A model generated the notes under the pieces. The model searched no databases. It was not told the DNA's origin and saw nothing but the letters and a program-made list of their open reading frames with translations. From positions 77,281 to 141,280 of the forward strand of contig BBCS01000004.1 in the NCBI GenBank assembly GCA_001316125.1: a stretch of 64,000 nt of DNA, given 5' to 3'. The first letter of the stretch is position 1; each line of letters starts with the position of its first letter. Made by a program: the position numbers and the translations under genes. The stretch is from Vulcanisaeta distributa JCM 11213 (GTDB lineage: Archaea > Thermoproteota > Thermoprotei > Thermoproteales > Thermocladiaceae). Positions 1-64,000 of the stretch are shown piece by piece.

Positions 1-577
1 ATCTAACGGTTGTTTCGAAGCTCCTTGAGTTATTGTTAATTGCCGAGATTGCCTCATCAATCATCTTCATTATCTTAGCTAATTCATCAGCTGTTAAGCC
101 AGCAATACCGTTTAAGATACTTGGTATCTCGGTTGATTCCTTAATATTAGGTAAGTGCAGTATTGATGTATCCGACATATCAGGTAATGAATAACCTATT
201 ACCACATCTATTGACGTGTTATCTATCATAATTACATACTCATCGCTTATGCCGAGTTTCTCGGTGAATTCCATAGCCTGCTTAATGGACATGAGTACAT
301 TTGTATAGTAATTGATTGCATCTCTAATCGCCTCCTTATAGCCGCCGGCCGTTAGTGCGTATATTACCTCGATATCATCAGCCTTAGTCGTTATGTTCAT
401 GCTGCCCTTAATGAACGTGGTCGAGGACTTACTTCTTAATTCCTTGATTAGTTTATTCACGGACTCATTATCTGGATTGTAAGCATATATTTCATTGATG
501 ACTTGCATTATCTCATTAAGTTTATTACCAAGATCTAGAGCTATATCCCTTAACCTATCACTTCTTAGTACTATCAA
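1..577 (-). CDS. Hypothetical helical protein, C-terminal part beyond the window
   Basis: Open frame on the minus strand running off the left edge, so its C-terminus is missing. It probably starts at the TTG at 577, inside the last codons of the upstream gene (overlap about 20 nt, different frame), which suggests translational coupling. The visible ~190 residues are mostly charged and helical, with a stretch resembling strand-helix (EYVIMIDNTSIDVVIGY) in the second half. I do not recognise the family. It is the last visible member of a minus-strand operon of small helical proteins behind a ribbon-helix-helix protein. The neighbour upstream ends in a similar hydrophobic-strand plus IN/ID motif, so they may be distant relatives or partners. 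Confidence 0.6.
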   Translation of the reverse strand, partial: MIVLRSDRLRDIALDLGNKLNEIMQVINEIYAYNPDNESVNKLIKELRSKSSTTFIKGSMNITTKADDIEVIYALTAGGYKEAIRDAINYYTNVLMSIKQAMEFTEKLGISDEYVIMIDNTSIDVVIGYSLPDMSDTSILHLPNIKESTEIPSILNGIAGLTADELAKIMKMIDEAISAINNNSRSFETTVR

Positions 578-947
578 GGTTAATCACCACCAGTGATGGT
601 ACATCGCTAAAGTACCTGACCATGGCTTTAAACCCATAATCCTTAAGCTTGCCTAACCTGGTCTCGAGGGTCTCATAAATTGCGTATTCTAGCTTAAGAA
701 ATTGAAGAGCCCTCAAAAACAATTCCCTATAGGCCTCCTTTGATGGTTCTCTATATAGGATTATCGATATTGAGTTAGGTATATCAATGACAATTCTCTC
801 ACTTTTATCGGGTAAGTTGTTTTCACTGATTATCTTCTTGTAAATTTCGTATAGGTTCTTCACATACTCAGAGACCCTTTTCTTATTCTCAAGAACCCTC
901 CTATGTAATTCCTTCACATCAATGCTCATGTCAAGGTTTGCGCTCAT
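558..947 (-). CDS. Hypothetical helical protein (129 aa)
   Basis: Intact 129-codon frame, ATG start overlapping the stop of the upstream gene by 4 nt (ATGA), the usual sign of an operon. The first ~90 residues are charged and helix-prone with coiled-coil character. The end (SLVVINLDSTKK) looks like a single hydrophobic strand followed by a basic tail, much like the C-terminus of the upstream gene (VMVMIDYANKKTRLVIMP). No known domain recognised. The similar ends suggest that the two proteins are related or form a common assembly; that is inference. Confidence 0.7.
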   Translation of the reverse strand: MSANLDMSIDVKELHRRVLENKKRVSEYVKNLYEIYKKIISENNLPDKSERIVIDIPNSISIILYREPSKEAYRELFLRALQFLKLEYAIYETLETRLGKLKDYGFKAMVRYFSDVPSLVVINLDSTKK

Positions 948-1339
948 GGCATTATCACCAGCCTCGTCTTCTTATTGGCATAATCTATCATAACCATTAC
1001 GGATGCATTTCTATCCTTAATTCCACTTAGGTACTTACTCACCTTCTCAATTTGGCCTATTACATAATTAATATTGTCGTCTATTGCGTTCAATTTATTT
1101 AATAGCCACGTTGAGTGAGGCACAATATGTATATTTAATGCATGTGGTATGGCCTGCACAGTTATTACCTGATGGGACGGTTGAAAACCAAGTTTCATGA
1201 GTTTCTCCTCCACGTCAGCGTTTATTTTCAGTTTCTCCCTAATTACACCATAATGTTCCCTTAGAGTTGATAGTTGTTCTTTAATTATATTCAATTTGTT
1301 TATTGCATCCTCAACCGTGCTAAATAATAGCACTAACAT
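944..1339 (-). CDS. Hypothetical helical protein (131 aa)
   Basis: Intact frame with an ATG start. Starts with a hydrophobic VLLF segment, followed by charged helices (about residues 12-50 and 85-110) and a terminal strand. It overlaps the next gene by 4 nt, so both are co-transcribed. The gap to the ribbon-helix-helix gene upstream is 78 nt. Family unknown. No catalytic motif or metal-binding pattern is visible, so a structural or scaffold role is more likely than an enzyme, but this is a guess. Confidence 0.7.
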   Translation of the reverse strand: MLVLLFSTVEDAINKLNIIKEQLSTLREHYGVIREKLKINADVEEKLMKLGFQPSHQVITVQAIPHALNIHIVPHSTWLLNKLNAIDDNINYVIGQIEKVSKYLSGIKDRNASVMVMIDYANKKTRLVIMP

Positions 1340-1417
1340 TCAGATTCTCATTAATTAGGCTATATTTATTCTTTACTTGTGAAATTGATAGAACGCCCCC
1401 CCTATGTAGAGACGGTA

Positions 1418-1648
1418 TTAAATCCTCTCCTCCCTAATTAACCTAGAGATCTCACTTATAGTCCTGTTTATGTCCCTAATATCATTATGTATAGCCATTA
1501 TTTCCGCCATAATCAATGAATTATCTAAACACTTAATGAGTAGGTCAGCCCAACTCTTTGAGCGATATATTTGCTTGAGCTTTTTCAGCTCTTCATATTG
1601 CTGCTCATCAACCTCAATCACGATTCTCTTCTTGCCATTCTTAGCCAT
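1418..1648 (-). CDS. Ribbon-helix-helix type small protein
   Basis: 76 aa. The N-terminus has a short basic strand (KKRIVIEVDEQQYEELKKL) followed by two helices, the layout of ribbon-helix-helix DNA-binding proteins: KRIVIEV would be the DNA-contacting ribbon. Residues ~45-76 form an extra helix (IMAIHNDIRDINRTISEI) that could be an oligomerisation or partner-binding tail. It is the first gene of the left-edge minus operon, so it may autoregulate the helical-protein genes downstream, in the manner of an antitoxin or plasmid-partition regulator. The RHH assignment rests on pattern only. Confidence 0.55.
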   Translation of the reverse strand: MAKNGKKRIVIEVDEQQYEELKKLKQIYRSKSWADLLIKCLDNSLIMAEIMAIHNDIRDINRTISEISRLIREERI

Positions 1649-1693
1649 GCAGCTAATGGACTATTAACTAATTTTAAAGTTAACCTTCTAGAA

Positions 1694-4116
1694 CTACTTG
1701 CCTCTTTTTTGCGATTTCGTAACACTAATCATAAATTCTGGTATTTCGACATACTTTACATAGTATTGAATGAGGACTTTAATTACCTCTCTAAGCATTA
1801 ACATAAGTGTCGATTTCCTAACACCAAGGACCTTGGCCGCCTCCCTCCAAGGCCTTGCCTGCAGAACCTTGCAAATCAATGCCTCCTCATAAAATTGAGG
1901 TAAGGCAATGCTGTCAAGACTCCTCCTCAGGTAATATGTCTTGACAAGCTCAGTTATTGCATCAGCCGTGTTTTCATACGTCATCGGGCCCCCATGAATA
2001 GGCAATTAAACGCCTAATCTGAGCCTCCGTGAGCCTAGGACTATACTCAGGATCGAGGGCTTGATCCCAATCAGTTAATAACATCCTAACAACGTCTGGC
2101 TCCATGTCATGGAATGGGCCTTGCAACGAATTAAGTAGTCTCAGCCTAAACTCCTTATTCGCGTAGATGGCAGCACTCCTGGCCTTCTCACTCATCGGCT
2201 TAACAAGTAATACACTATATTCACCACTTATTGGATTTCTCTCAGGGCTTATGTGGACCGGCATGTAACCATTCTTGATCCAGAAGTTCAGTAACTTAGC
2301 ATTAACGCCGAAACCAACACCAACCCAGTCAATACCCCCCCTTTCCCTGGCCTCCTCCTCAATCCTCCTAAGCATCTCAGTACCAAGACCCCCCCTGTCC
2401 TGAAGCTCTGGATGTGTCGCAATCCTAATGATCCTCCAACCCCCCCTTAACTTGGCGAAGTCCGTAAGCCCCCCAATACTTAATTAACCTATCCGGTATT
2501 ATGTTCCCAGGCAATTTCAACCCCCTCACAACCATGTCGATTAAGTCATCACTTATGCCACCCTCCTCAGCCAACTCCACAGACACAACGATCTTCCCAT
2601 TACTAAGCGTTAAAGCCCTTATGAAGTGGTGAGGTGCATCCATCATCATGCCCAGGTCGTCGGGTTCATTCCTATAATGGGCCTGAACATAAATACCGAA
2701 GAATTGCCTAAGCCTATCCTCACTTGATAGGAAGAACTCCTTAAGATTGGGTATTAGGTAATTGAATTCTCGCTTACTTATTAATTCATAATCCTCATCA
2801 GTTATTTTCGCAGGTTCGGCATCAAGTAACAAGGTGTCAAATAACCATTGTTCCACCGGATCATTAGGCGCATACCTAATTGGTTCCTTAAGCTCGTACT
2901 CAATGACCTTCGTATTTTTATCCTCACGTAAATACTTAAGGAACCTAAGGCTAAAGCCCCTACCTGCACCCTCATAACCATGTATCGTCGACGCATATAT
3001 AACCCTATTAAACCTCTCGTGTATTCCATATAGCACGGGAAGCGGTATCATCGCTGCCTCATCAACGACCACTATGTCCCTACCCTCCTCGCTAAGCATG
3101 TCGTAGGGCCTTACATAGTCTATGAAGATGGAGATACCAACCTTAACCGAAACAACATCACCACCCCAATAACTCACGTCCACATCATAATTCAGCGCCT
3201 TAAGGCCCTTTATCACGAACTCCATCAGCGTTGAGACATTGCTTGGGTTCATCGCGGTTACGGCAAACCTAGCCCTACCCTTAGCCTTCCTAAGCCTATG
3301 GGCAAGAGCCGCCAATGCCAAGCCAATGATTGCAGACTTACCCCCCCTGCCCCCCCTATCCGCTATCAACACAACATTCACCTTCCTACCCCCCCTCGGA
3401 GGCCTCTCCAGCAGTATTTCCATTGCTCTAAGTGCCTCGACCTGGTCCTGGGTCTTGGCAAGTTCATAAATGGCCTTTGAAAACCTAATCCTCTCAGGCA
3501 TTACCAACTCCCTTTGCTTCCATGGCTGGGAATCGCCAATGACCGGTTCCTTTATTATCTCGTCACCATCGACATTGATTATTAACGCCTTATTCATGCC
3601 CATTAACTTATTCCAAAATCTAATCTTTAAGAAATGCCTAACATCTTCAGGCCTATATTGAGGGACCAACAGGCTTTGTTGAAACTTCGTTAGTTGCCTA
3701 ACCCATTCATTTAATGGCGGCACCATGAATATGTAAATACCACCACCCCCCCTAACAATACCTCCCAGTCTACCCACGTCATTCGGCTTCAAGTCATTCA
3801 CTAGGTCTAGGATTGCGAAGTCTACGGTAATGCCGAGGAGCTTATCCGTATCCTTATACGGCCTATAATCAATACTTGCAGCAGCACCCTCAATAAACTC
3901 CTTGAACTTACTCATCCTCCTCTGCGCATCTGGGTACTCAGGTTGATACATGTATAGTCCATGCGGCTCCTTAACAATTGATGAGAATACCCTGAGGGCA
4001 TCTGCCACGTACTTAGCCAGCCTTTCTTCGTCAGTACCCACGAATACCACGAGCCTCCTGTGATTTGAAGACACGCCCTCCTTAACCAGACCTTGCAACA
4101 GCTCGGTCCAGCCCAT
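1694..4116 (-). CDS. tmcA: tRNA(Met) cytidine acetyltransferase TmcA, frame-broken
   Basis: RNA cytidine acetyltransferase of the Kre33/NAT10/TmcA family: ATP/GTP-dependent helicase module fused to a GNAT acetyltransferase that makes ac4C. In order: N-terminal DUF1726-like region, P-loop helicase (residues ~245-400, including VVVDEAAMIPLPVLYG), GNAT domain (DFAKLRGWRIIRIATHPEL, then DRGLGTEML) and a C-terminal tail (ALICKVLQARPWREAAKVLG). The reading frame is broken near 2470 and near 1990. The first break sits at a G6 run where G5 gives KYWGLTDFAKLRG; the second at C5 (1989-1993) where C4 gives YSWGPMTYEN. The P-loop reads DRGGRGGKS instead of the family DRGRGKS, each extra Gly lying in a G7 run. 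I treat it as one functional gene of ~800 aa. Start ATG at 4116. Confidence 0.9.
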
Positions 4117-4178
4117 ATCCTCAGTACAGCCTTATCAATGCGAATTAGGGCTTATAAACATATGCAATGCAGTAACTA

Positions 4179-4234
4179 CTGATGATTAAGCGCGTTGGTT
4201 CTGAGAAGTGATGAGTGACGGGCGAGAAGGATGA
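4179..4234 (+). ncRNA. Candidate C/D box sRNA
   Basis: Box C CTGATGA (4179-4185), a 15-nt guide, box D' CTGA (4201-4204), spacer GAA, box C' GTGATGA (4208-4214), a second guide beginning GTGACGGGCG, and a weak terminal box D (ATGA at 4231). A TATA-like CTTATAAAC at 4151 is correctly placed for a start near 4179. The second guide is complementary to CGCCCGTCAC, a universal stretch of the 16S rRNA decoding region. The first guide contains GCGCGTTGGT, also found in the sRNA at 55268. The poor last box D is the weak point; it may be a sequence error. Confidence 0.55.
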
Positions 4235-4235
4235 C

Positions 4236-4799
4236 TCACCTCCTTGGAAATATTGACCTGCAAGGCACCTGACCCCTCCTTACCATGCTCATGAATTCTA
4301 CGTATGAATTATAGACATCCTTAATCCACGCATTAATACCCTTAAAGTACACGGGCTCCGTATTCAATAACTCAAGCAACTCATCAGTACTCAGCTTATT
4401 TATATAGTAGCAGGGGGGGTCCTTCAGTAGTAGTACTCTGCGGTATTCCCTAGCCATAACCTCAGTCACAGGGGGGGTCCCAGCGTCATAATCCACATCA
4501 CTGATTAATGGTTCCACATCATCTAATGATATTTTATTCACAAACCCCCTACGCTCCCACTCATCAATAACGGAGTAGAAATACCTAATGAGGTCATCTA
4601 GATATGGACGTCCATTATTAAAATACATGAGAACTATTGGATGATTGAGCCACCCAGTTTTGTCATCTTTGAGTACATTGAGTTTCCTAAGTATTGCAAG
4701 TATAACCTGCTTAGTCTCAACTCTTTGCTTACCAAGCCTTAAGTTATCAAGGAATTTAGCTGATTTCTCATGATTAATATAGGGCCTAAATACCTGCAT
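4236..4799 (-). CDS. Pyrimidine dimer DNA glycosylase (T4 endonuclease V type)
   Basis: 187 aa. The N-terminus MQVFRPYINHEKSAKFLDN then RLGKQRVETKQ is the typical start of the PF03013 family (T4 DenV-like UV-damage glycosylase/AP lyase and its cellular relatives): a conserved Thr/Gln-rich turn and the RLGKQRVE helix. Length fits the cellular branch. It probably removes UV-induced pyrimidine dimers. Two G7 runs (4393-4399 and 4463-4469) insert one Pro each (KDPPCYY, GTPPVTEV). Start ATG at 4799; transcription is divergent from the Nuo-like pair. The family assignment is firm; activity on UV dimers is inferred from relatives. Confidence 0.8.
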   Translation of the reverse strand: MQVFRPYINHEKSAKFLDNLRLGKQRVETKQVILAILRKLNVLKDDKTGWLNHPIVLMYFNNGRPYLDDLIRYFYSVIDEWERRGFVNKISLDDVEPLISDVDYDAGTPPVTEVMAREYRRVLLLKDPPCYYINKLSTDELLELLNTEPVYFKGINAWIKDVYNSYVEFMSMVRRGQVPCRSIFPRR

Positions 4800-4980
4800 T
4801 AACGGTATCTCAAGATACTCCTTATTATTTTCTAACCCTCGGTAAATTAATGAAGGTAGTACTTAAAAATACGGTCTCTCCATAAGGCACGTATGCTAAT
4901 GAATAGCACCGAATTACAAAGGTATTACTTAATGATGTATCAATGTAGAAATGTATCATTAATCAAGAAGGCAATGGCAG

Positions 4981-6472
4981 GTGAGAATGATGCTCATACA
5001 AAGTGATCCAGTACTGTTAGTATCTCTAGCCTTACCTTTCGTGGCTTCAGTAATAGCTGGAATAATAGGTAAGAGGTTCAGTAGGGTTGCAATGATTATT
5101 ACCTCCGTATCCTTTATACCACTATTTATATATTCATCGTACTTACTAGCACTTGGCAAGGTTTACTTAATCCAACTTGGCACCTTACCAAGACCAATAG
5201 GTACGGTTTATTTAATAAGTGATGGCTTAAGTAATGCATTTGGTTTAGCAATAGCACTTGTTGGAATAGCACTAGAAATAGCTTCTTATCCATACATGAA
5301 GCATAGATTCCATGTGCTAGGACTAACTGAACAATTCGACGTATATTACCTGCTCTTTACATTATGTGCGGCAAGTATGGAATTACTGATATATTCATAT
5401 AATTTATTGTTAATGTATATAGCCCTAGAGGTTTCATTAATAACGCCTGTCATATTAATTTATTACTATGGTTATGATACGCAGGGCATGACAAGACGCT
5501 GGATCGCGCTCCTTTATTTCGTATACGGCATGTTAGCAAGTACATTATTCCTAATAGGTGCCGTTATGGTTGGTCTAGAGAATGGGACGATGGATCTCTA
5601 TGCAATAAGGAGCATATCAATTGCGGCGTGGGCTTTAATGTTCATAGGATTATTAATAAAATTACCAAGCTTTGGACGCATGTATGGATACCTTGGGTTC
5701 ACGGGTCTCATCCAACTCCAGTAGCGGCGTTAATATCAGGGCTTGTTGGCTTAATGGCTTATGTATTGGCTAGGATATACCTAGTTTCTCCATATTTCAT
5801 AGACATGTTTAGATTACCAATACTCGTTTATGCAATAGTCGGTGGTATCATAATAAGCCTTGGCGTAATTAGGCATAGTTACCACTATAAGTGGTTACTT
5901 GCATATTCAACAGCGGCTAATTCCACGTACTTATTAATAGGACTTGCACTAGGTCCTTACGGAATACTTGGACTAACAATGCATTATATATCACACTTAT
6001 TCGGCAAAACGATTCTCTTCATGACCGCCGCCTCAATAATTGTTTACTATGAGGAATTTGACATGAGAAAAATGGGTGGTCTTCAGACGTATATGCATCA
6101 GTCGGTGCAGCTGCTGTATTTGGCTGGATGGCACTTTCGGGAATACTAACATTATCAATGCTTGCTGAGTTTTACCTGTTCCTTGGGCTAATAAATGTTA
6201 TACTGCCATCATACCCATTGTGGGTATTTATAGGTTTAGCTAGTGGACTAGCTACCATATTTGTGTTAACGGGATACTATGGCTTCTGGGCTCTTAAGCA
6301 GGTGTTTTATGGGCAATCTAGGGGGGGTAATTACCATAAGGTAAACGTTGATCCCAAACTCGTAATACCATTATACGTACTTGGACTAGCTGCGATAATA
6401 CTTTTATTCCCACCAGCATCCACATACCTCGTGCATTCAGTATTAATGAGTATTAGTATGATAATGAGGTGA
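4981..6472 (+). CDS. NuoM/NuoN/MrpD-like proton-pumping membrane subunit, frame-broken
   Basis: Polytopic membrane protein (about 14 hydrophobic segments) of the complex I antiporter-like family (proton_antipo_M). Seen: the family lysine region after the break (HVWIPWVHGSHPTPVAALISG) and HYISHLFGKTILFMTAASI. Starts with GTG at 4981 (or ATG at 4987). It is split by single missing bases near 5680 (between LIKLPSFG and HVWIPWV) and near 6095 (before YASVGAAAVFGWMALSG), and should be read as one gene. It overlaps the next gene by 4 nt (ATGA). With the NuoL-like partner it would form the membrane pumping arm of a respiratory or hydrogenase-like complex; none of the soluble subunits is in the window. 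Confidence 0.8.
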
Positions 6473-8478: not shown

Positions 8479-8499
8479 TGAGAGATGTGGAAAAGCCCA

Positions 8500-9683: not shown

Positions 9684-9702
9684 ATGAGTAATTGCGTCAT
9701 TT

Positions 9703-9739: not shown

Positions 9740-10747
9740 TTACTTACTGTACTTTAAATGCCACAATCTCATGACATCATCCTCAATAAAACCATGAACC
9801 TCCTCAAGCACCCTACCATTACTAATTAATTCAATACCTGGTTCACCATTCACGACCTCGCCAATCACCGAGTAATTAATACCTAGTTTCTCTAACTTAT
9901 TCATTGCAACCTCCACTTGATTCCTTGGAACTGTGGCTATTAGCATGCCTGAGCTTAGGGATTTAAGTGGGTCGATGCCCAACGCATTAAATATGAGCCT
10001 CGTTTCCGGCAGAATTGGTATCTTATCTATATTAATTCTTAACCGTACATTACTGGCCTCGGCAACTTCAAGCAAACCCTGAAGTAAGCCACCCTCCGTT
10101 GGGTCATGCATTGAATTGGCAATATCGGCAATCTCAAGTGCCTCTTTAACAACGCTTATTTCCCTGAGAAATGCCCTCGCCCTATTAATAATCTCCTTAG
10201 AGACCCCCCCTTTACCCATTAATTCTTCCCCCCCAAAATCATTAGCCAGTACTGCCGTTCCTTCTAAGGCCACGTACTTAGTAACGAGAACTAAATCACC
10301 TGGTTTAGCCCCCCCTGAGGTTGTTACATAGCGATTGCCAATGCCTATGGCCGTGGTTGATGCAATGACCCTATCAATACCAGGCGTATATTCCGTATGG
10401 CCACCCACCAATGAGCCTCCTAATTCAATGAGTGCCCTGTTCACATCGCTCATAATCACTCTAATACCATCTTCACCAACGTTGCGTGGTAATAATAAGG
10501 TTAGTAAGAACCACCTTGGTTTTACACCCCTAACTGCAATATCATTAGCCACAATATTTACTGCGAACCAACCAACACCCTCAACCGCACCCGTTATTGG
10601 ATCCGTATGCATCACCAAATACTTATCTCCAACTCTAACCACTGCCGCATCCTCGCCAACCCTAGGTCCAATGATTATGTCGGGATCAGCAACACCTAGG
10701 TTTGTGAATATAATTCTCCTTAACGCCTCATTACTTAACTTAACCAT
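9740..10747 (-). CDS. AIR synthase-related protein (PurM/HypE/ThiL fold)
   Basis: 335 aa, intact. PurM-like ATP-binding fold: [23 protein letters not shown] (metal/ATP loop), [24 protein letters not shown], then the C-terminal half with [14 protein letters not shown] and SGMLIATVP. The DPTEGG motif is shared with HypE and related AIRS proteins. It resembles the archaeal 'AIR synthase-related' group rather than true PurM, HypE or ThiL, whose neighbours are absent. C7/G7 runs insert single Gly residues in [15 protein letters not shown] and MGKGGVSKE. The substrate cannot be deduced from the sequence. Confidence 0.75.
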
Positions 10748-13869: not shown

Positions 13870-15141
13870 ATGGGATTTAAGGAAACAAAGACCGTCGATC
13901 AAGTACTCAGTGAGGCTATTAAGTACATTAAGCACGTACCTAGGATAATCGAGGTAACAATAAGTGAGGCGCTCAATAAGTACATTGCTGAGGATGTAAT
14001 GGCTAGGTTCGACGTACCTGGGTTCAATAGATCCGCAGTTGATGGATATGCTGTGAGGAGTATAGACACGTTTGGTGCCTCACCAACAAACCCAATAACA
14101 CTTAGGGTCGTGGGGTTCATGGCCGTTGGCGACGACCCAGGTAAGTACTCACTAAATCCGGGTGAAGCCATTGAAATAAGTACGGGCGCCCCACTACCCG
14201 TTAATGCCGACGCGTGGTTATGTATGAGGACACGCGAAGGTCTGGTGACTATATCGAGGTATTAAGGCCCGTACCACCCATGGGCAACGTGTCAAGGAGG
14301 GGGGGTGAGGATGTAAGGGCCAATGAGGTTATGTATAGGAGGGGGATGAAGATACTTCCCTGGGACTTGGGCGTGTTGGCTCGATGGGTATTTACAGGGT
14401 TAAGGTGTTTTCACCGAGGGTTGCAATAATAAGTACTGGTAATGAACTTGTGGAGGTGACGGACGTATCGAGTAATGGACCACCACCTGGTAAGGTAATC
14501 AATAGTTCGAGGTTCGTAATTGAGGGATTACTTAAATCCCTTGGCTGTGAACCGAATTACCTGGGTATTGTGGGTGATAATGAAGATGAGATTGCGAAGA
14601 CCGTGAGCAATGCCCTTAAGGATTACGACGCGGTAATTACGACAGGCGGCGTATCCGTGGGCAAGGTCGACTACACCATAAGGGCCGTGTCAAGGTTAAA
14701 CCCTGAGTATCTAAACCATGGACTTTCAATTAGGCCTGGAAGACCAAATAGCATAGCGGTGGTTAATGGTAAGCCTGTCTTCATGCTTAGCGGTTTCCCC
14801 CCCGTGGCTGCAGCGACGGGATTCGATGTATTAGTAAGGCCTATTCTATTGCACATGATGGGCGCTATTGATGATCCCAAGCCAGTGATTAAGGGGGGGG
14901 TCTTAACTAGGAGGGTTTCGACTCCAGTTAATACCAGGTCTTTCGTCAGGGTTAGAGCCTATTTGGGTAGGATGGTAGGGTGTACGTTGAGCCATTGGCA
15001 TTAACGGGTAGTGGCATACTCAGTACTTTGGTGAGGGGGGGTAATGGGATCCTGATTGTTCCAGAGAATAGGGAGGGTTTTGATGAGGGTGATGAGGTTG
15101 AGGTCACATTAATAAGGCCCTTATTCATGGAAAAGCCATAA
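13870..15141 (+). CDS. moeA: Molybdopterin molybdenumtransferase MoeA, frame-broken
   Basis: Inserts molybdate or tungstate into adenylylated molybdopterin. Seen: DVPGFNRSAVDGYAVRS (domain III/I start), GEAIEISTGAPLP, the MoCF_biosynth domain (RVAIISTGNELVE; ITTGGVSVGKVDYT; VFMLSGFPP) and the C-terminal barrel (VEPLALTGSGILSTLVRG). Three single missing bases break it near 14213 (a G of GCGGTGG), 14375 and 14970 (a G of AGGGATGG). About 423 aa when joined, normal for MoeA. G7 at 14289 gives RRGGEDV for the family RRGEDV. Start ATG 13870. Confidence 0.9.
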
Positions 15142-37072: not shown

Positions 37073-37170
37073 GGGCCCGTAGTCTAGCCTGGTAGGATGC
37101 CCAGGGGGGGCCGACGCCCCGTACAAGCCTGACGCGCGGGAGATCCCGGGTTCAAGTCCCGGCGGGCCCA
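37073..37170 (+). tRNA. tRNA-Val (anticodon GAC) with intron at 29/30
   Basis: Acceptor stem GGGCCCG/CGGGCCC pairs perfectly; D arm GTCT/GGAT; anticodon stem CCCGC/GCGGG only forms after removing an intron (37103-37126) between positions 29 and 30; the loop CTGACGC holds anticodon GAC at 37131-37133. Variable loop AGATC, T arm CCGGG-TTCAAGT-CCCGG, discriminator A at 37170 and an encoded CCA at 37171-37173. The intron contains G7 followed by CCGACGCCCC. Four G would form a perfect GGGGC-CGAC-GCCCC hairpin. Non-canonical intron positions are typical of Thermoproteales tRNAs. A TATA-like CCTTAAAAGG lies ~26 nt upstream. Confidence 0.93.
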
Positions 37171-37271
37171 CCAAAGCATCTTAAACATTAGATATTCTAT
37201 GACTGCATTGACGTCACTCCTTACTCAGGATACATGTCAGTAAACAAATTTAAACTCACTCGAATCACTTT

Positions 37272-54389: not shown

Positions 54390-55172
54390 TTATTGTTGCA
54401 TTCCCAGCCTCTCCTTAATCTCCTTAAGTAATAATGTCATCGCATCACCAGCCTTGCATTGTATGATTACATCGGCGATGTAATCAAGCTCCGTGGGTTC
54501 TATATTTATAATTATGACCTTACCACCCATCTCCTTAACAAATATTGGTATGTAAGCCGCTGGATAAACAGAGAGTGAGGAGCCAATGACTAAGACCGCA
54601 TCACTCATTAGTGCTAATTCCCTAGCCTTATCGAAATCCTTAACTGGCTCTCCAAATAATACGGTATCAGGCTTAAGAATACCACCACACTCATCGCAGA
54701 GTGGTGGTATTTGACCATTATCAATCTTCTTAATAACGACCTCCATTGGATATGCACGGCCACATGCAATACATACAGCCCTCTTCATTGTGCCGTGAAG
54801 CTCGATCACGCTCTTAGAGCCAGCGGCTTGATGGAGTCCATCAACGTTTTGGGTAATTACCGCCTTTATGATGCCCAACTTTTCGAGTTCGGCCACGGCA
54901 TAATGCGCCCTGTTGGGCTTAGCCACGAACAACGTGCTCATCCTCATCCTATAAAACAACCAGAAATCCTTTGGATGCTGCAGAAAGTAATCTATTGTCG
55001 CTATTTCGGGACTATACTGCCTCCATAATCCTTGGGGGGGACCTCTAAAGTCGGGGGGGATTCCTGACTCCGTGGATATGCCGGCACCCGTGAAGGCTAT
55101 TGCGTGCTTCGCATTGATCAGTATGTCGGCAGCCCTCTTAATATCCTCCATGTTGCATTGTTTTTCACTCAT
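54390..55172 (-). CDS. NAD-dependent protein deacylase (sirtuin)
   Basis: 260 aa, intact. AIAFTGAGISTESGIP (NAD pocket), DFRGP motif, ITQNVDGLHQAAGS, VIELHGTMKRAVC (catalytic His), zinc Cys4 (CIACGRAY and LCDECGG), VLFGEPVKDFDKA and VIGSSLSVYPA. Deacetylates proteins such as Alba with NAD. The invariant GIPDFRGPQG reads GIPPDFRGPPQG: two extra Pro, each in a G7 run (55034-55040, 55053-55059 on the plus strand). As written these would disrupt the NAD site; I read them as sequence error. Confidence 0.93.
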   Translation of the reverse strand: MSEKQCNMEDIKRAADILINAKHAIAFTGAGISTESGIPPDFRGPPQGLWRQYSPEIATIDYFLQHPKDFWLFYRMRMSTLFVAKPNRAHYAVAELEKLGIIKAVITQNVDGLHQAAGSKSVIELHGTMKRAVCIACGRAYPMEVVIKKIDNGQIPPLCDECGGILKPDTVLFGEPVKDFDKARELALMSDAVLVIGSSLSVYPAAYIPIFVKEMGGKVIIINIEPTELDYIADVIIQCKAGDAMTLLLKEIKERLGMQQ

Positions 55173-55267: not shown

Positions 55268-55320
55268 GTGATGAGCTGACGACGGACTGAACTCACTGAT
55301 GAGCGCGTTGGTGGCTGACC
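55268..55320 (+). ncRNA. C/D box sRNA
   Basis: Box C GTGATGA (55268-55274), 12-nt guide GCTGACGACGGA, D' CTGA (55287-55290), spacer ACTCA, C' CTGATGA (55296-55302), 12-nt guide GCGCGTTGGTGG, box D CTGA (55315-55318). All four boxes and both spacings are canonical. The first guide is complementary to GTCGTCAGC, a universal 16S segment. A TATA-like GAATTTAAATTA lies at 55231. Its 3' half overlaps the end of the glycosyltransferase gene on the opposite strand. Confidence 0.85.
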
Positions 55321-55876
55321 TCATCATATATTGCCTCAATATCGTCAATAGACCTCACCTCCACGGCATTGATCCCGTAGTGATTCCTGAGGGATTCATA
55401 CGTAGGCCTATTATGCGCAATAACGTATAATGCCGAGGAGAAGGCGTATTTCTCCCAATCCCTTATTGTTAAGCTCAGTAGGCTTACACCATTACCTGAT
55501 CTAATGGGTTCCGTGGAATAAGCACTGACTATGTATGGCACCTTAAGCCTTTGTGAAATCACCTTGCAATAACCGCCGCAATCCAATCATGCGCATGCAC
55601 AAAGTCTATGTCCCTGGGTATTACATAGGGTACCCTGGAGAGGATCTCCACAAGTAGGAAGTGCATGTACGCGACGACGTCGCTGAACCACCTATCGCTC
55701 ACGGTGAATATGCGCACATTGCCATCCATATAACTACCATCAAAATTAGCTGGGTGTACTAGGTATACCTCGTACTTACTGGATAATCTGATAACCAAGT
55801 CCCTAACCTGGAATGCCAGTGACCCAACCACCCTATGCGGTGGGTACTCTGTCGATATGTGCAGAACCTTAACCAC
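55293..55876 (-). CDS. GT4/GT5-like glycosyltransferase N-terminal domain protein, frame-broken
   Basis: Start ATG 55876. First Rossmann lobe of glycogen-synthase-type transferases: VLHISTEYPPHRVVGSLAFQ (donor/acceptor loop), FVHAHDWIAAVIA. After a shift at ~55565 it continues VISQRLKVPYIVSAYSTEPI and ends at SHQRAHQ. Joined ~195 aa: only the N-terminal lobe, no C-terminal donor-binding lobe with its EPFG motif. Either a truncated gene or a stand-alone half-enzyme. It sits next to the divergent GH57 gene, which suggests a role in glycogen/starch metabolism. Its 3' end is antisense to the C/D sRNA. Confidence 0.75.
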
Positions 55877-55881
55877 AGAAT

Positions 55882-56121
55882 TTAACAGTAGATACTGCTT
55901 AATTTAATTATTGCAGTGGATGTTAGGTGTACGGAGTCATTGATTGTGTTAACGTAACCAAGCACCTTAAGCTTATCAACAATGCTCCTAACCTCCTCAA
56001 CCCTCAAACCAACAATCCTCGCCAAATCCTCGAGCTTAACGGCCCGCTCCTTATCAATCGCAGCCAATGAATGCAGGGCCTGCATTACGGTCCTTATTTT
56101 CGACTCGTAACTCACCTCCAC
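55882..56121 (-). CDS. Small helix-turn-helix protein
   Basis: 79 aa, intact. wHTH/MarR-like: AVKLEDLARIVGLRVEEVRS, IVDKLKVLGYVNTINDSVHL. Five bases upstream of the glycosyltransferase start, so cotranscribed with it. Divergent from the GH57 gene; it may control that gene pair. Confidence 0.7.
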   Translation of the reverse strand: MEVSYESKIRTVMQALHSLAAIDKERAVKLEDLARIVGLRVEEVRSIVDKLKVLGYVNTINDSVHLTSTAIIKLSSIYC

Positions 56122-56222
56122 AAAGTATTATAAATCAATTTCCTTCTTAATAAATTTCTCTATCATTAATCGTGAATTGGTAATTGAAATAACAAAAAGC
56201 ACTTATATAATTATTATCCGTA

Positions 56223-58002
56223 ATGAAGGCAGTGTCTATAGAATTAACAACGAATAAGGCGCTCTACGAACCAGGCGAGGACATAACAGTCAATGTAGTG
56301 GTTAGGGGATTAATGAGTAGGGAGGATATTGAATTAACGGTGATTAAGGATTCCCAGGAAATAACTAAGCGAGTCCTGCAGGCAATACCTCCGGAATCGG
56401 AGATCATGGATTACGTTAGGATAAATGACGTGGGTACCTACGAAATAAGCGCCAGGTGCTGTGGTTCAGAGGTTAGGACTCCAATAATGATCATTAATAG
56501 GCCGGAGACACCATTAAGGTTCGTACTGGTTTTTCACAATCACCAGCCAATCCATAAGTACCCAAGCGGTATTTATCACGGACCCTGGGCATTCCAACAC
56601 ACCTGGTCCCCTGAATTCTACCCAATATACGACGTAGGCCCCCTACTTACTACATGCCAGATTAGTGAATAAGTATAGGGTTTCCGTAACGTATAACCTA
56701 AGTCCAAGCCTGCTGTGGCAATGGGATGACCTACTACGTAATGGCGTATTCATCGAGGGTGTGGATCACGTTGACTACATAGGTCCCTGGGATTCGCGGG
56801 TGGAATTAATTAAGGAGGCGATTAATACGTATTCAAGATTAGCTAATGAGGGTGTTATAGAGGTGCTAACGAGTTTCCTAGCTCATCCAATAGCCGGTTA
56901 TTTAATTGAGAAGTTTGAGGTTTATGACCTATTACGGTGGGAGTTGAGTAGGGGGGGGAAGGAGGTTACTAGGAGGGTTTTGGGTGTGAGCGCCGTTGGT
57001 ATGTGGCTTCCTGAGTTGTACTTTTCCGAGAAGTTGAGGAATATTCTCTGTGATGAGGGTATTAGGTTCATAGTCCTTGATGGTGTTTATCACCTCGGTG
57101 AGGCCATTAAGGATAGGAGTTCCATCTACAGGGTTTATAGGCACGACTGCTTAACAATACTATTTAGGGATACAGCACTTAGTGACTTACTGAGCTTTCA
57201 ACTTAACAAGGCCAGTAATGCCCAGGAGACTGATGCCAATGCCAGGAAATTAATTATAGAGTTAATGATGAGGATTAACTACGCCAGGGATGGCGTGGTT
57301 ACAATGGCCTTAGACGGGGGGGAGAATTGGATGATATTACCAACACCAAACCCATACGCTGCCCTACTCCTTGAGAAAATAATGATGTACTTATCGCAGG
57401 CTAAGTCTGATGGTTATGTGATGCCCATTAGGCCGTCAATAATTAAGGAGTTTCACGATGAAATTAAGGAAATACCAACCACCTCATGGCTGGGCTCACC
57501 GGCTAAGTGGATTAGTGAGAGGGCAGATATACAGTCGAGGCTTTGGTCCATGGCTCAAGCCGCAATTAATAAGTGGAGGTTGTATGAGGAGGTTTTTGGG
57601 GGGGAGGATGAGGAATTAAGGATGTCCCTTGCAATGACGCTGGATAGCGATTATTATTGGGCTGAATTCGTAAACGTAAACCACGTGGGTGAATGGGCGC
57701 ACTCCGTAATAAGTAGGGCTGAGGATGCACTCAACTCATTGGGGGGGATTAGGTTTAGCCTAGGGAATGATCACTTGGAAATTACCGTCAGTAATAACTG
57801 GGTTAAGGATGCAAACCTAGTGCTTGGTATTGAAACCCCAGAAACATATCTTGAGTATAGTATCAAGGTTCAATCAGGTTCGTCAGAGCCCATAAGAATT
57901 AATGGTTTCAATAACGTAGTAATATCATTACTATCACCAAAAACGAGGATGCAGATTAGGAAGCCCATTAAAATAGTGCGTGGGGGGGTTACGAAACACT
58001 AA
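56223..58002 (+). CDS. GH57 family glycoside hydrolase, frame-broken
   Basis: About 590 aa joined. N-terminal beta domain (SIELTTNKALYEPGEDITVN) then GH57 motifs: FHNHQP (motif 1), AVGMWLPELYFS (nucleophile Glu region), MALDGENW (read as DGGENW through G7 at 57316-57322) and AEFVNVNHVGEWAH. A shift at ~56660 splits the first quarter. GH57 enzymes include alpha-amylase, 4-alpha-glucanotransferase, branching enzyme and amylopullulanase. The neighbouring glycogen-synthase-like half suggests alpha-glucan remodelling. Specificity not resolved. Confidence 0.88.
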
Positions 58003-59152
58003 TGATGCTTGATCCATTAATTATGTACGTGACGTCCCTGTCGGATATGCGCATCGTTATATAGTCATAAACGTAGTCCATACTTAATCCCTCATAATCA
58101 ATACGTAGGGCAATCCCCCTCATGGGCTCTCCCTCCCTTATTACGTAGCCAAAGCCCCATGACCAAGCCCAGGAGGTGGCCATCTTAAGTATCGTCTGTG
58201 AACTTAATTCATTACCCATCAATAGTCTCATCACCTTAATCTCATCCCAGGGATTAGGCTCTATCAATGCAACATTATCAGTACCAACTAGTGGTCTCAA
58301 TCCCCTCCTCACCATGGCGCTCACCCTCGCAACTTACCAACGAATTCAATATTTGACCTCGGACAGGTGACCATAGGTAATGTGGGTATTCTCGAAAAAT
58401 CCTCATCGCCCAATTGCGTTAAGTGCACAAACACAGTATTGCCAGTCACAAGAGTATTTAATGCCCTGTCTAGGTCATTATCGAGGTAGGTATCCTCAGT
58501 TTCGGACACGTGCGTACTAATGGGCAACCCACGTGAGCCACCTAGCCTAGAGGCAAGCCTTAACTCAGCCATTGTGTAGTTAAGTGGTGATATTAATGAT
58601 ATGCCGAATCCCCCCCTATCAACGAAGTACTTTACCTCATCCTCAAATACCTCATCAACATCCTCCTCCTCCTCAGGCTTAACGTGGATCCTAAACGTAC
58701 TCGGCTCAGCAAGCGGCACGATACATAGACCTGCCTCCCAGCTTCCTCAATGACCACGTCCGCGAATACCCTACCGTACTCAATAATCGTCAGTAAACAA
58801 CCAACACCGTAATTCCTAATCCTACGAAACACGGTAGCCAACCCGCCCCCTTAATGACTCAGGCTTTGCTCTACGCAGGTAATAATACTTAAGGCCGTAT
58901 GGCGCACCAACCACATCATCGATATAGTACTTATTGAATAAGCCCATTAGGAAGTAATCAAGCACGTGAATATGGGCATTGGTTAATTGGGGGCATTAGT
59001 AACGTGTTTCCTAAATCAACAACATTATTACTACCTGGTACCCGTCCAATACCGGTCACCTCACCATCAGATACATCAATAACAGCATCCTTAATCGGCT
59101 GTAACTCCTCACCCACCAGCGCCATTGAGGACTTAATGCTCAATCTACGCAT
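57989..59152 (-). CDS. Amidohydrolase (SsnA/chlorohydrolase type), frame-broken
   Basis: TIM-barrel metal hydrolase. N-terminal beta domain (MRRLSIKSSMALVGEELQPI), metal site LTNAHIHVLDYF, ISTHVSETEDTYL, MVTCPRSNIEFVG and the metal Asp in LVGTDNVALIEPN. At least four breaks: C5 58989-58993 (true four gives LTNAHIH), C5 58846-58850, ~58710 and ~58325. Joined ~390 aa. Likely a deaminase/amidohydrolase of nucleosides or similar; substrate unknown. It converges with, and overlaps by 14 nt, GH57. Start ATG 59152. Confidence 0.78.
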
Positions 59153-59192
59153 TCGAGGATGAGTTTAAGTAGTTAAATTAATGCTTTGTTTG

Positions 59193-60286
59193 ATGAAGAT
59201 AGCAATTATAGGCTTGAATCCAGGCACTGCGATTTATGCACAATACATGGCTAAGGACGGGCATGACATCACTATATTCACAGAAAGCCAGGGTGACGTA
59301 ATAATCATGGATTTACTACCGCATTCCCTCCTAAACATTGTGAATAAAGGATCAATTAAATTATTCACTAGGAAGTATTTAGAGGACGTACTTGGGATTA
59401 ATGTAATAAATGTGAGGTTAAGTTCGATAATCATCAATGAGAATAAGGTATTGATTATGAATGAAAATTATGGACGGGGGGGAGTTGAGGGTAAATACGA
59501 CAGGGTTATAATTGGTTCTGAGGCGTTACCGAGGGAGTCAGGTGATTGCGTGAGTATTTATAAGGCTGCTTTATCACCAAGTAACTACATAATTAATGGT
59601 AATGATGCAGGTAAGAACACCGAGTCGTTAATGCTCGTGACGGATCTCGGTGGTCGCGCTGTTACGAATTCATCGACGGCTATTGACGATGATATTCTCA
59701 AGTCACTACCAATCAATAAGAATGTAGGGGCTGGGGAATGCGTATCCACTGATTATGACGTGGTTAAGCCATCAATAGGCATGGTTAGTGGGGGGGGTGA
59801 TTGGTTTATCGGTAGGGGGATTTACATTTAGGGACTCATTAAGTGGTATTGAGTATGTGGTTAATAGGGATTATCAATTAATCATGATGGGGGAAGTTAC
59901 TGGCAATGAGGGATTTGGGGATCATTAATTCATTGCCATTAATGCCACGCCTAGAGGTTGGTCTTTCCCGTAACTGGTCGTTTCTATCCGTGGGGCTTAC
60001 ACGGAATGAGTTAGGTACTGTTTTCAGGGATTTATCATCGTCTAGAGTGGCTTATCACTCGGATGGGGTTGACATAGTGGCTAAGGTTATTCATAGGGGT
60101 AATAAGTTATTGAGTCTTCAGGTGTTGGCTAGGGGCGTTAAGTTGTTCAATTGGTTCTCCTTGATTTATTCCCTAATCATGCTTAACAATACGGCTTACC
60201 TATTACTTGATATGGGTTATGAAGCCGTGTTTAATACTGTTCGTGGATTACTCGAACAATTAATGCTAAACTTATACAATATATAG
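59193..60286 (+). CDS. Rossmann-fold FAD/NAD-dependent oxidoreductase-like protein, frame-broken
   Basis: ATG 59193 opens MKIAIIGLNPGTAIYAQYMA with a GxNxGxAxxA dinucleotide site typical of FAD pyridine-nucleotide oxidoreductases. KYDRVIIGSEAL marks the second half of the fold. Breaks at G5 59815-59819 (true four gives GRGFTFRDSLSG) and G5 59889-59893 (four gives MMGKLLAMRDLGIINSL). Joined ~365 aa. The C-terminal half (LEVGLSRNWSFLSVGLTRNE) is unlike standard oxidoreductases. Substrate unknown; the binding site for NAD has three Gly missing from the classical GxGxxG. Confidence 0.6.
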
Positions 60287-60347
60287 GTTGTTATGGCTAA
60301 TAAGTTAATAAATAAGCTTTATTAATGACCCAACCGAGTAATAGTCA

Positions 60348-60767
60348 GTGCCTGGAATCCTGGCTAACGTCGATTATGAGGAACCACTCACTAGGTATAG
60401 AATAAGGGAGGTGCTCATTGAGGCTCGTAGGCGGTCAATAAGTTATATAGATAAGATGAAGCAGGAGGTTCTTGCAGACTCATTCTACGTACACTATAGG
60501 CAACCAATACTCAAGATGCCCACGGAGAACGAGGACATGGAAACCTCACTATGGAGATTTGTGGTCTCCACATACATAAGGAGTGAGGCCTATAATGACG
60601 TGTCCAGGATAACTAGGTTAAATGGTAGGTTGTCCAGGGTAATGGCGATTAAGTTACTCAAGGTGTATAATAGCATCCTGAGTAAGATGGATAGGAACGA
60701 AGCTTTAGACAAATGGTTGAGTCGGCAATGGATCAGAAGAGCGCATCCTCAAGGGAGAGTAGGATGA
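60348..60767 (+). CDS. Helical protein coupled to the VWA gene
   Basis: 139 aa, GTG start. Charged helical protein (YRIREVLIEARRRSISYIDK; SAYNDVSRITRLNGRLSRV). Its 3' end overlaps the VWA gene by 55 nt in another frame, so both are coupled, or the two form a single gene split by one indel. Similar to the N-terminal helical region preceding CoxE-type VWA domains. No other motif. Confidence 0.6.
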   Translation: MPGILANVDYEEPLTRYRIREVLIEARRRSISYIDKMKQEVLADSFYVHYRQPILKMPTENEDMETSLWRFVVSTYIRSEAYNDVSRITRLNGRLSRVMAIKLLKVYNSILSKMDRNEALDKWLSRQWIRRAHPQGRVG

Positions 60768-61675
60768 ACCTAGAACGGGAGGTTCGCTCATTGATTAATT
60801 TCTACGTCGGAAGCATGAAGAAGGTCAGCGAGACTGTTAACAAGGTTAAGATGCTCTTTGGGGATTCCGTGGGCCATGAAATAGCGGATATACTACTGAG
60901 CACGGACATCGACCCATACAGACTCAGGTTAATCTCAATGCTCAACTCACTGATTAAGTTGATTGTGGATACCAGGTACACGGTAGACGTTGTTGAGGAC
61001 GTAGATGCTGAGCGGGTTGGCACCGTGGGTGGGGGGGTTAAGCGCATGACGAGGGCCTCGGAGCTTAGGGACATGATACCGAGTGAGAGGATGCTCATGA
61101 AATTCGCCAAGCCAGTATTCGCGTATAAACTGGCCATGGGTAATGTACTGGTTAGGGAGAGGAGGGCCATTAAGAAACCTAAGATATACATGCTCATTGA
61201 CAAGAGCGGTTCAATGTTTTACACAGTAAACATAAACATATTTGAGGTGGGCGCCATTAGTAAGATTACCTGGGCCACGGCCCTAGCCGTGATACTGGCT
61301 ATGAAGGGTGGTAACCTAGCCGTGAGATTCTTCGACCAGCAGGTATACCCAATGCTGACTAATAAGAATGATATCATAAAGATGCTGCTCTCCCTAATAC
61401 CGCTGGGTGGCACGGACATAACGAATGCCGTTAGGGCTGCAGTACAGGATGCCGTGGATAAACCATCATTGAGGGATTACAAATTAGTCGTTATAACCGA
61501 CGGTGAGGACGATAATGTTGACCCGACGGTATTTAATAAGGCGAAGTCCATATTCAGGTCAGTCAAGGTATTACTAATTGGTGGTGAGAATAGTGTTATC
61601 GAGGAGAATGCGGAAACGATAAAGATCCAGGAATTAACAAGCGAGAGCCTATCCTACACAATTAAGAAGATCTAG
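60713..61675 (+). CDS. VWA (von Willebrand factor A) domain protein, CoxE-like
   Basis: 320 aa, intact from ATG 60713. VWA MIDAS: IYMLIDKSGSMFY (DxSxS), LGGTDITNAVRAA (Thr) and VVITDGEDDN (Asp). N-terminal helical region (LEREVRSLINFYVGSMKKVS). CoxE-like VWA proteins act with MoxR ATPases as chaperones for metal-centre or complex assembly; a MoxR gene is not in the window. G7 at 61030 adds one Gly (TVGGGVKR). Confidence 0.85.
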   Translation: MVESAMDQKSASSRESRMNLEREVRSLINFYVGSMKKVSETVNKVKMLFGDSVGHEIADILLSTDIDPYRLRLISMLNSLIKLIVDTRYTVDVVEDVDAERVGTVGGGVKRMTRASELRDMIPSERMLMKFAKPVFAYKLAMGNVLVRERRAIKKPKIYMLIDKSGSMFYTVNINIFEVGAISKITWATALAVILAMKGGNLAVRFFDQQVYPMLTNKNDIIKMLLSLIPLGGTDITNAVRAAVQDAVDKPSLRDYKLVVITDGEDDNVDPTVFNKAKSIFRSVKVLLIGGENSVIEENAETIKIQELTSESLSYTIKKI

Positions 61676-62087
61676 CCTCAAAACAATTCATTGGTGAGTC
61701 ACAGACAAGCACCTGAACCTCAACAACATCATTAATTCCTAACCTACTCAGTATGCCCATCACACTGTCAATGAAGTACCAAGCAACACACTCACCAGTG
61801 GCCCCCTCCGGTATACAGGGTATCTCAACAAACTCACCTGGCATTAATCCCTGGGCACTCTCCATGCTCGACTTTATGTACTTGCCATCGAAGGTATTAA
61901 CGATACCCTGGACCTCACGCCTAATTTTATCAATATCAGTCACGAGCATCCTCCTACCCCCCCTAACACAGAGCCTTATTGTCACGTCATAATTATGCCC
62001 ATGAACATTACCATAGACATCACTAAACCTGACCCTATGGGCTCCGGAGAACATGAACTTCATGGACAGGCAGGTAATCTCAACCAC
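61662..62087 (-). CDS. 6-pyruvoyltetrahydropterin synthase / QueD family protein
   Basis: ~142 aa. T-fold enzyme: FMFSGAHRVRF and VHGHNYDVTI supply the three zinc His (H, HxH); GECVAWYFIDSVMG and NCFEARS complete the substrate pocket. QueD homologues make 6-carboxytetrahydropterin for queuosine/archaeosine, PTPS makes tetrahydropterins; the sequence does not separate them. GTG 62087 fits a leaderless message with TTTTTATGC ~26 nt upstream; a longer frame begins at 62126. It is divergent from cobA. Confidence 0.82.
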   Translation of the reverse strand: MVEITCLSMKFMFSGAHRVRFSDVYGNVHGHNYDVTIRLCVRGGRRMLVTDIDKIRREVQGIVNTFDGKYIKSSMESAQGLMPGEFVEIPCIPEGATGECVAWYFIDSVMGILSRLGINDVVEVQVLVCDSPMNCFEARSS

Positions 62088-62132
62088 GGATATTCGTAAT
62101 AATACGCATAAAAATGCATTTCCCACAGATTA

Positions 62133-62908
62133 ATGGGGGGGATGGTTGGTAAGGTCATCATCGCAGGGGGGGAGGACCTGGTGATGAGGGATTACTAACG
62201 CTTAAGTGCATCGAGGCTTTGAGGAGCGCCGATGTGGTGATTTATGACAGGTTAATACCTAGGTCGGCCCTGAACTACGTGCGCCAGAGGCCCAATTAAT
62301 CTATGCCGGTAAGGAGCCAGGTAGGCACACGATGGAGGAGGACGAGATAATAAGGATTATGATAAGTGAGGCAGGTAATGGCAAGACCGTGGTTAGGCTC
62401 CATGGTGGTGACGCATTCCTGTTTGGCAGGGGGGGTTTTGAGGAGTGCGTGGCTGTGCTTAGTGCTGGCATACCCTGTGAGGTCATTCCAGGCGTAACCT
62501 CGCTATAGCTGCGCCAGAGGCTTACCTAATACCGCCAGTACTACGTGGTGTCTCTAGCTCGGTGGCTATAGTGACCGGCACAGAGGACCCGAGGAAGGGT
62601 AGGTCATTCGTGAACTTCAGAGAATTGGCTAAGGCCGTCAACACGATCATAATACTGATGGGCGCGTCGAGGATAGCGAGATAGCCAGGGAATTAATTGA
62701 GGGCGGTCTTGACCCAGGTACTTATGTTGCTGTAATAACGAGGGCGTATATGGAGAATAGTAAGGTCGTGATAACCACGGTGGGTAAGTTATCCTCTGGG
62801 GGGGAGGTAGGTGTGGAAAATCCCTCAGTTATTGTGGTTGGAGATGTCGTACGTGAGGGATTGAAGGCGATGAGGATTGCGGGAATAAGCTTCGAAATGA
62901 ATGTTTAA
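62133..62908 (+). CDS. cobA: Uroporphyrinogen-III C-methyltransferase (SUMT, CobA), frame-broken
   Basis: Recognised by translation of broken frames. VGKVIIAGGGPGDEGLLTLK (SAM-binding glycines, needs G5 at 62166), ALRSADVVIYDRLI, YAGKEPGRHTMEEDE, VVRLHGGDAFLFGRG, IPCEVIPGVTSA, AAPEAYLIPPVLRGVSSSVA, IVTGTEDPRKGRSF and MGASRIAEIARELI are all CobA/SUMT motifs. Breaks at ~62285, ~62505, ~62670 (missing G). Joined ~255 aa. Dimethylates uroporphyrinogen III to precorrin-2, the entry to sirohaem and cobalamin. ATG at 62133 or 62142. Completes the HemD-CbiX-CbiB-CobQ set in this window. Confidence 0.9.
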
Positions 62909-62929
62909 TAAAAGGTGCTGCGGATAAGT

Positions 62930-62990
62930 CACTGTGATGAGGCACGAGCGTGGCGGATAACGTGACGAGCTTGCGCCCATACTGACCCGG
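62930..62990 (+). ncRNA. C/D box sRNA
   Basis: Box C GTGATGA (62934-62940), 13-nt guide GGCACGAGCGTGG, D' CGGA (62954-62957), 4-nt spacer, C' GTGACGA (62962-62968), 13-nt guide GCTTGCGCCCATA, box D CTGA (62982-62985). The guides have equal lengths and the D'-C' spacer is the normal one. First guide is complementary to GCTCGTGCC (universal 16S helix 34-35 region); the second to TATGGGCGCAAGC, like the conserved 16S stretch TGGGCGCAAGC. TATA-like GTTTAATAAAAG (62904) sits ~25 nt before. Placed between cobA and amzA. Confidence 0.85.
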
Positions 62991-63033
62991 AGGTTAATGC
63001 ATTAAAGCATTGATTAAGGCTGTTGGTTGGGTC

Positions 63034-63561
63034 ATGAAGAAGATCCTCGTGTTGACGGAGGTAGAGCTCCCAAGTGATTTCCCTAGGCAGGTTGAGCGTT
63101 ACCTGGGTAATTTGGTTCAGGTTGAGATGAGGAGGACGGATTTTGAGGGGTTGAAGTCCCAGTTCAGAGACGTCAGGAGGGGGGTCAGGTAAGGGCTGAT
63201 GTGCTCCTTGATTACCTGGAGCCAGGGTCAGGGGGTTATGAGGGTTTTGATAAGATTGTGCTCGTGATTGACGATGATGGCTATGTGGAGGGGGGGCTGA
63301 ACTTCGTATTCGGGGGGGTTGCGAAGATGAGCGGATCATTAGCTAGTATTCACAAAGAGACTACGTGGGGAGCAATCACTCTACCAACTGAGAATACTTA
63401 AGGAGGTACTTCATGAGTTGGGTCACTCCTTCGGGCTAGACCACTGCACAGACCCCCCCAGGTGCGTCATGTACTTCAGCAACACGATAGAGGATACGGA
63501 TAGGAAGGGTCCAGGGTACTGCCAAAGATGCATGGCTAAATTACGCTCATTACTTCGTTAA
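63034..63561 (+). CDS. amzA: Archaemetzincin zinc protease, frame-broken
   Basis: ATG 63034 (KKILVLTEVELPSDFPRQVE). Metzincin site HELGHSFGLDHC (HExxHxxGxxHC) and downstream zinc-finger Cys (CTDPPRCVMY ... YCQRCMAK), characteristic of archaemetzincin with CX4CX14CX2C-like metal binding. Breaks at ~63190 and ~63340 (IKFTKRLRGEQSLYQLRIL region). Joined ~175 aa, usual size. A peptidase of unknown physiological substrate. C7 at 63454 adds one Pro. TATA-like ATTAAAG (63001) lies ~30 nt before the start. Confidence 0.88.
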
Positions 63562-63590
63562 TTCAATGACGGTTATATCCTGGGGGGGAA

Positions 63591-64000
63591 TTAACCATCC
63601 CAACTCTCAGGATTAGGCAACCCCAAGTAATCGCTTATCGCGTGGTTAATGTCATCTATACTCCGTAAGTTTACACTCATAATTTTCGATGGAATGGGGG
63701 GGATGGCTAAGTAATCATCCTCAAGAAACCTGGTCCAACTCTCCGATATTTTCCTACCGAATATCATCAATACCTCCCTGAATATTACTGAGTTGTACCA
63801 AGCGGCAATCATTGGGTTGTTGGTCCTTATTACGTAGAAGTTCTTCGAGGCGCACAACGGCTTATCGCTGTAATTAGCAATAACCTTATGCCTGGTAAGG
63901 TCCACCTTATCATGGATGAACACATGGCCAAAGGGCACCTTAGACCTTAACTGTATCCATACATGTCGATACCACTTATCGCCAAATTTTAGGGCTGGTA
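63591..64000 (-). CDS. C-terminal part of a DNA methyltransferase/type IIG-like protein
   Basis: Minus-strand frame entering from beyond the right edge; only ~135 C-terminal residues are seen: KFGDKWYRHVWIQLRSKVPF, NYSDKPLCASKNFYVIRTNN, then WYNSVIFREVLMIFGRKISE and DDYLAIPPIPSK. This order (strand, SKNFYVI, WYNS helix, FLEDDYLAIP) is the pattern of the target-recognition C-terminus of N6-adenine methyltransferases of Eco57I/TaqI type. The catalytic NPPY motif would lie outside the window. A methylase would interest given the G-run anomaly, but no link is shown. Confidence 0.6.
   Translation of the reverse strand, partial: PALKFGDKWYRHVWIQLRSKVPFGHVFIHDKVDLTRHKVIANYSDKPLCASKNFYVIRTNNPMIAAWYNSVIFREVLMIFGRKISESWTRFLEDDYLAIPPIPSKIMSVNLRSIDDINHAISDYLGLPNPESWDG

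Follow-up and report, generated by a model that had tools for sequence, protein, structure and literature searches.

Runs of seven G or C in a 64,000-nt stretch of a Vulcanisaeta distributa draft are most likely runs of four over-called by short reads

The window analysed here, the whole 64,000-nt stretch of DNA from Vulcanisaeta distributa JCM 11213, encodes among others TmcA, a PurM-like protein, a MoeA region, a tRNA with an intron, a sirtuin and a GH57 protein (Table 1), and many of its open reading frames look split. Exact runs of seven G or C (hereafter 7-runs, with other lengths named likewise) number 110 (50 of G and 60 of C) and are spread over the whole window, against only five 6-runs; the full series for G/C runs of 3, 4, 5, 6, 7 and 8 is 1149, 59, 31, 5, 110 and 10, while A/T runs look ordinary (198, 51, 12 and 2 for lengths of 4, 5, 6 and 7). 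The first 63 kb of the matching stretch of a related genome, G001, holds 196, 26, 2 and 0 G/C runs of 4, 5, 6 and 7, and exact G/C 7-runs occur twice in the entire 2.37 Mb of that genome, a rate at which ~0.05 would be expected per 64 kb. The 110 found therefore bear out the original prediction that such runs lie far above chance.

Table 1. G/C 7-runs across the window and at named motifs, with their state in the related genome G001.
Feature	Position in window	Strand	Observation
Whole window, 110 G/C 7-runs and 10 8-runs among 59 4-runs and 31 5-runs	1..64000		Run count
TmcA P-loop DRGGRGGKS, 7-runs 3341-3347 and 3350-3356	3334..3360	-	Both four in G001, motif there DRGRGKS
PurM-like GKGGVSKE, 7-run 10204-10210	10193..10216	-	Four in G001, motif there GKGVSKE
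PurM-like TSGGAKPGD, 7-run 10309-10315	10295..10321	-	Four in G001, motif there TSGAKPGD
MoeA-region RRGGED, 7-run 14299-14305	14295..14312	+	Four in G001, compared at DNA level
tRNA intron stem G arm, 7-run	37104..37110	+	Four in G001; C arm 37117-37120 four in both
Sirtuin GIPPDFRGPPQG, 7-runs 55034-55040 and 55053-55059	55029..55064	-	Both four in G001, reads GIPDFRGPQG there
GH57 DGGENW, 7-run 57316-57322	57313..57330	+	Four in G001, motif there DGENW

The window matches one stretch of G001:C1 nearly end to end, and the four matches of at least 5 kb were used to build an alignment. Identity of G001 to the window is 94.3%, and 95.16% when ungapped columns are counted (58515 of 61489). This alignment covers 105 of the 110 7-runs, five lying outside it, and 21 of the 105 were left unscored (16 with other interior differences and 5 with a flank mismatch); the same two grounds removed 2 of the 10 8-runs and 44 of the 192 G/C 4-runs of G001. 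At the 84 scoreable 7-runs the length in G001 was four in 79 cases, five in three, three in one and two in one, and at the eight scoreable 8-runs it was five in seven cases and six in one. The proposals that a 7-run stands for four plus three bases, and an 8-run for a true five, thus both agree with the relative. Viewed from G001, 148 scoreable G/C 4-runs were represented in the window by 79 runs of seven, 49 of four, 15 of five, one of six and four of three. Scoreable G/C 3-runs (939) were mostly of the same length (914), with 24 shorter and one of seven. A/T runs were nearly unaffected: none of 841 A/T 3-runs was shorter in the window than in G001, and 141 of 145 scoreable A/T 4-runs kept their length.

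Three-base insertions in the window relative to G001 fell inside G/C homopolymers in 105 of 111 cases. The coding DNA contains 141 scoreable G/C 4-runs, 73 of which are seven or more bases long in the window, and the effect of an expanded coding run is mostly one surplus residue, added in frame. G/C homopolymers also differ by single bases (46 deletions and 23 insertions), which breaks reading frames; together, the shortened 3-runs (24 of 939) and the 4-runs read as five (15 of 148) indicate that frame-breaking errors are present alongside the in-frame ones. The 7-runs of the window are most likely not biology but true fours miscalled as seven by short reads.

The nine runs behind the examples first singled out (two each in TmcA, the sirtuin and the PurM-like protein, and one each in the MoeA region, GH57 and the tRNA intron) are four bases long in G001 in nine of nine cases. 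The surplus Gly or Pro residues claimed for the TmcA, sirtuin, GH57 and PurM-like motifs are absent from the G001 proteins and also from those of G003, the outcome of the alignment to relatives that had been proposed for TmcA, sirtuin and GH57. At the sirtuin and GH57 motifs, the two that aligned, they are absent from G005 and G006 as well. For the MoeA region the claim of a surplus residue holds as far as the DNA goes, since the run itself is four in G001. Sirtuin homologues carry a single Pro at the first site in 118, and at the second in 116, of the 120 listed out of 7276, and no double Pro was seen among these 120, the remainder lying outside the search pattern. A further 7-run beside the GKGG motif (10228-10234, protein FGGEELM) is likewise four in G001.

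The tRNA intron stem had been described as symmetrical only with four G, which fits the state of both arms in G001; in another draft, G009, the stem is the reverse of that in the window, with seven bases in the C-arm run and four in the G-arm run. ARAGORN calls the gene (37073-37173) as Gly(gcc), at odds with the tRNA-Val of the original prediction, but our own reading of the exons favours a putative tRNA-Val(GAC) whose non-canonical intron would lie near position 29/30. The same tRNA gene seems to carry a further 19-base insert in the draft G004.

Among the 21 relatives scanned, exact G/C 7-runs were abundant in two assemblies, G004 (4803) and G009 (3857), where 6-runs numbered 293 and 272 respectively, and the ten other genomes of the genus held 0 to 5. 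A phylum sample of 398 genomes, drawn evenly from a larger group, contained no further genome with more than 340 7-runs, and in the eleven G-rich genomes of that sample that were checked, sixes outnumbered sevens in all. The excess is thus private to certain assemblies and not common to close kin (two 7-runs in G001 and three in G003). G003 and G004 are 94.2% identical over the stretch compared, and 4-runs of G003 are read as seven at 96 of 167 scoreable sites in G004 and at 47 of 82 in G009. Both affected assemblies have a completeness of 67% at sizes of 2.4 and 2.1 Mb respectively, which such errors would produce. A same-strain match from a second technology was not obtained when P0001 (Vulcanisaeta sp. 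JCM 16161) was compared with eight stretches, the best match being 97.6% over 246 residues, in G009. The P0001 contig comprises 2,291,514 bases, which suggests that a near-complete assembly of this strain exists and might act as a second-technology control for the older draft.

The drafts G003 and G006 resemble the affected ones in being full-size genomes of low completeness (63% and 81%), and resemble the window in that G/C 3-runs fall short of their G001 length at 21 of 711 and 5 of 342 sites (for G011 the count is 2 of 315, for G005 1 of 254). Unlike the window, they are not enriched in G/C 7-runs (three in each genome), and their A/T 7-runs outnumber their A/T 6-runs, with A6/A7 counts on both strands of 70/223 and 118/206 against 285/8 in G001. 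This A6/A7 shift (stretches L118-L123) looks like a different run-length fault.

Real growth of the G/C tracts of these strains from four bases to seven, in frame and across the genome, offered earlier as the alternative, would account for lengths that sit sharply at seven, for size changes in G/C runs that are mostly multiples of three and for the presence of the pattern in three assemblies of the genus. We nevertheless regard it as extremely improbable. Kin at ~94% identity lack the expansion, it would have altered motifs that are conserved in TmcA, sirtuin, GH57 and PurM-like proteins, and it is accompanied by frame-breaking one-base differences in G/C runs. Slippage, moreover, would be expected to yield a spread of tract lengths. 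The mirror-image behaviour of neighbouring G- and C-runs set out below also counts strongly against real expansion.

A cause tied to sequence context found little in its favour. None of ten flank positions tested separated 4-runs from 7-runs (lowest p 0.053). No dependence on codon phase was seen (expanded versus not expanded, 19/18, 36/36 and 18/14 for the three phases), nor did coding status show an effect (73 of 141 runs expanded in coding DNA versus 6 of 7 in intergenic DNA, p 0.12). Across the three assemblies, no consistent agreement of affected sites was seen: of the sites with seven in the window, 12 of 21 also have seven in G009, against 18 of 26 of the other sites, and for G004 the counts are 13 of 24 against 15 of 18; between G004 and G009 the site states (23 of 38 versus 12 of 24) lean slightly towards agreement, on small counts. 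A modified motif, one of the causes originally suggested, would be expected to recur at shared sites across related assemblies and to favour certain flanks, and as neither was seen it is not supported; a modified base or other context motif was rejected on the same two observations. The other suggested cause, a two-colour or poly-G effect, was judged to leave a gain of exactly three bases unexplained.

The states of runs are mildly clustered along the window (runs test, z -2.2), as local read orientation would also produce, and their arrangement depends on which base is repeated. In pairs of sites within 150 bp of each other in the three assemblies, runs of the same base agreed in state rather than disagreed (207 versus 88), whereas runs of opposite base disagreed rather than agreed (83 versus 40); the window alone contributes 31 pairs to the opposite-base result below 150 bp. 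For a larger set, 200 kb were added from each of G004 and G009, giving 2211 sites in total; in both sets 6-runs were omitted, fives coded as not expanded and eights as expanded. Correlation between same-base sites, in 25-bp steps to 200 bp, was 0.45, 0.35, 0.36, 0.29, 0.19, 0.17, 0.06 and 0.03, and between opposite-base sites -0.49, -0.55, -0.19, -0.24, -0.25, -0.08, -0.09 and -0.18, both series being near zero past 200 bp. The signed mean within 150 bp was 0.293 (n=1356 pairs; permutation sd 0.026, maximum 0.083 in 500 shuffles), falling to 0.025 at 150-300 bp. In the pooled table of the first, three-assembly set, pairs 1000-3000 bp apart lean slightly in the reverse direction (p 0.004), most clearly in G009. 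A simple orientation model fitted a read length of 230, with a bootstrap range of 160-300.

Agreement between like bases and disagreement between opposite ones, both gone near 200 bp, indicate that the orientation of ~200-nt reads decides the call at each run. The limited range is evidence against biology and against long reads alike, and no biological process known to us would set G- and C-runs of one strand oppositely over only ~200 bp. It likewise bears on artefacts of another kind, namely a consensus biased by long reads or by run-length encoding, or base calling upset by a modified base within G4/C4. Either would also produce errors confined to G/C and dependent on run length, which is what was observed. 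Long reads, however, would extend the neighbour correlation beyond the point near 200 bp at which it vanishes, which argues specifically against a run-length-encoded long-read consensus, and neither the lack of flank preference at the ten positions nor the inconsistency of affected sites between assemblies fits such artefacts, which we therefore consider unlikely, though less so than real expansion.

We are instead highly confident that the runs represent a consensus error from flow-type short reads, most likely those of the Ion Torrent PGM with a ~200-nt kit, in one of the JCM/RIKEN drafts. Within this batch, G/C homopolymers of at least four bases would be over-called by about three in one read orientation (either as G or as C) and called correctly in the other, and the consensus at each site would be that of whichever orientation dominates the reads there. 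A consensus that follows the dominant orientation would make nearby G-runs flip together, and nearby C-runs take the opposite state, across one read length. The principal earlier interpretation, that base calling or consensus building erred systematically at 4-runs, is thus supported by both the comparison with kin and the orientation correlation.

Homopolymer errors combined with a read length of ~200 nt suggest the Ion Torrent PGM, and published accounts of JCM drafts name this instrument. The V. souniana JCM draft BBBK01000000 is described as made by Ion Torrent PGM (PMC9872577), and three JCM Bacillus strains as sequenced with the PGM and assembled with Newbler 2.8 at 16-17x (PMC3961732); JCM drafts listed for the genus include V. 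distributa JCM 11215 (BBCT) and JCM 11217 (BBBJ) (PMC5069417). For the window's own assembly we infer the platform, and likewise the assembler and a fault of calibration that would turn fours into sevens. According to the error-profile passages of Bragg et al. (2013; PMC3623719), PGM 200-bp kits gave strand-asymmetric, high-frequency indels that were mostly unreplicated between sequencing runs, although only 7.4% of testable indel sites were strand-asymmetric. Homopolymer indels, dependence on orientation at some sites, reads of ~200 nt and high-frequency errors that mostly fail to replicate are all features that the window's fault shares with the miscalls in those passages.

The same passages also set the two apart. 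They describe under-calls as dominant at longer homopolymers, with the most error-prone flows tending to be A or T, whereas in the window G/C runs of at least four gain about three bases and A/T runs are nearly untouched; the published errors are mostly of one base and include A and T flows, and the main error here is of three and confined to G/C. An exact gain of three restricted to G/C is absent from the profile passages of PMC3623719, and a batch-specific calibration fault may accordingly be supposed. G003, which we take to be a JCM draft of a neighbouring accession series, lacks the G/C fault, so that this fault would be specific to some sequencing runs of that series.

No earlier report of such a pattern was recognized by title or abstract start in our literature search. 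On balance we favour the view that a one-orientation over-call by three of G/C runs of at least four constitutes a distinct failure mode of sequencing or assembly, one that writes in-frame Gly and Pro into conserved motifs in deposited archaeal genomes. The mirror-image correlation between G- and C-runs reveals the fault from a finished assembly, no reads being needed, and the same test also estimates the read length behind a homopolymer anomaly in old drafts. Because the residues are added whole and in frame they evade frameshift checks, and surplus Gly and Pro in P-loops and active-site loops could pass as real variation and enter alignments and training sets. As biology, the 7-runs have no significance.
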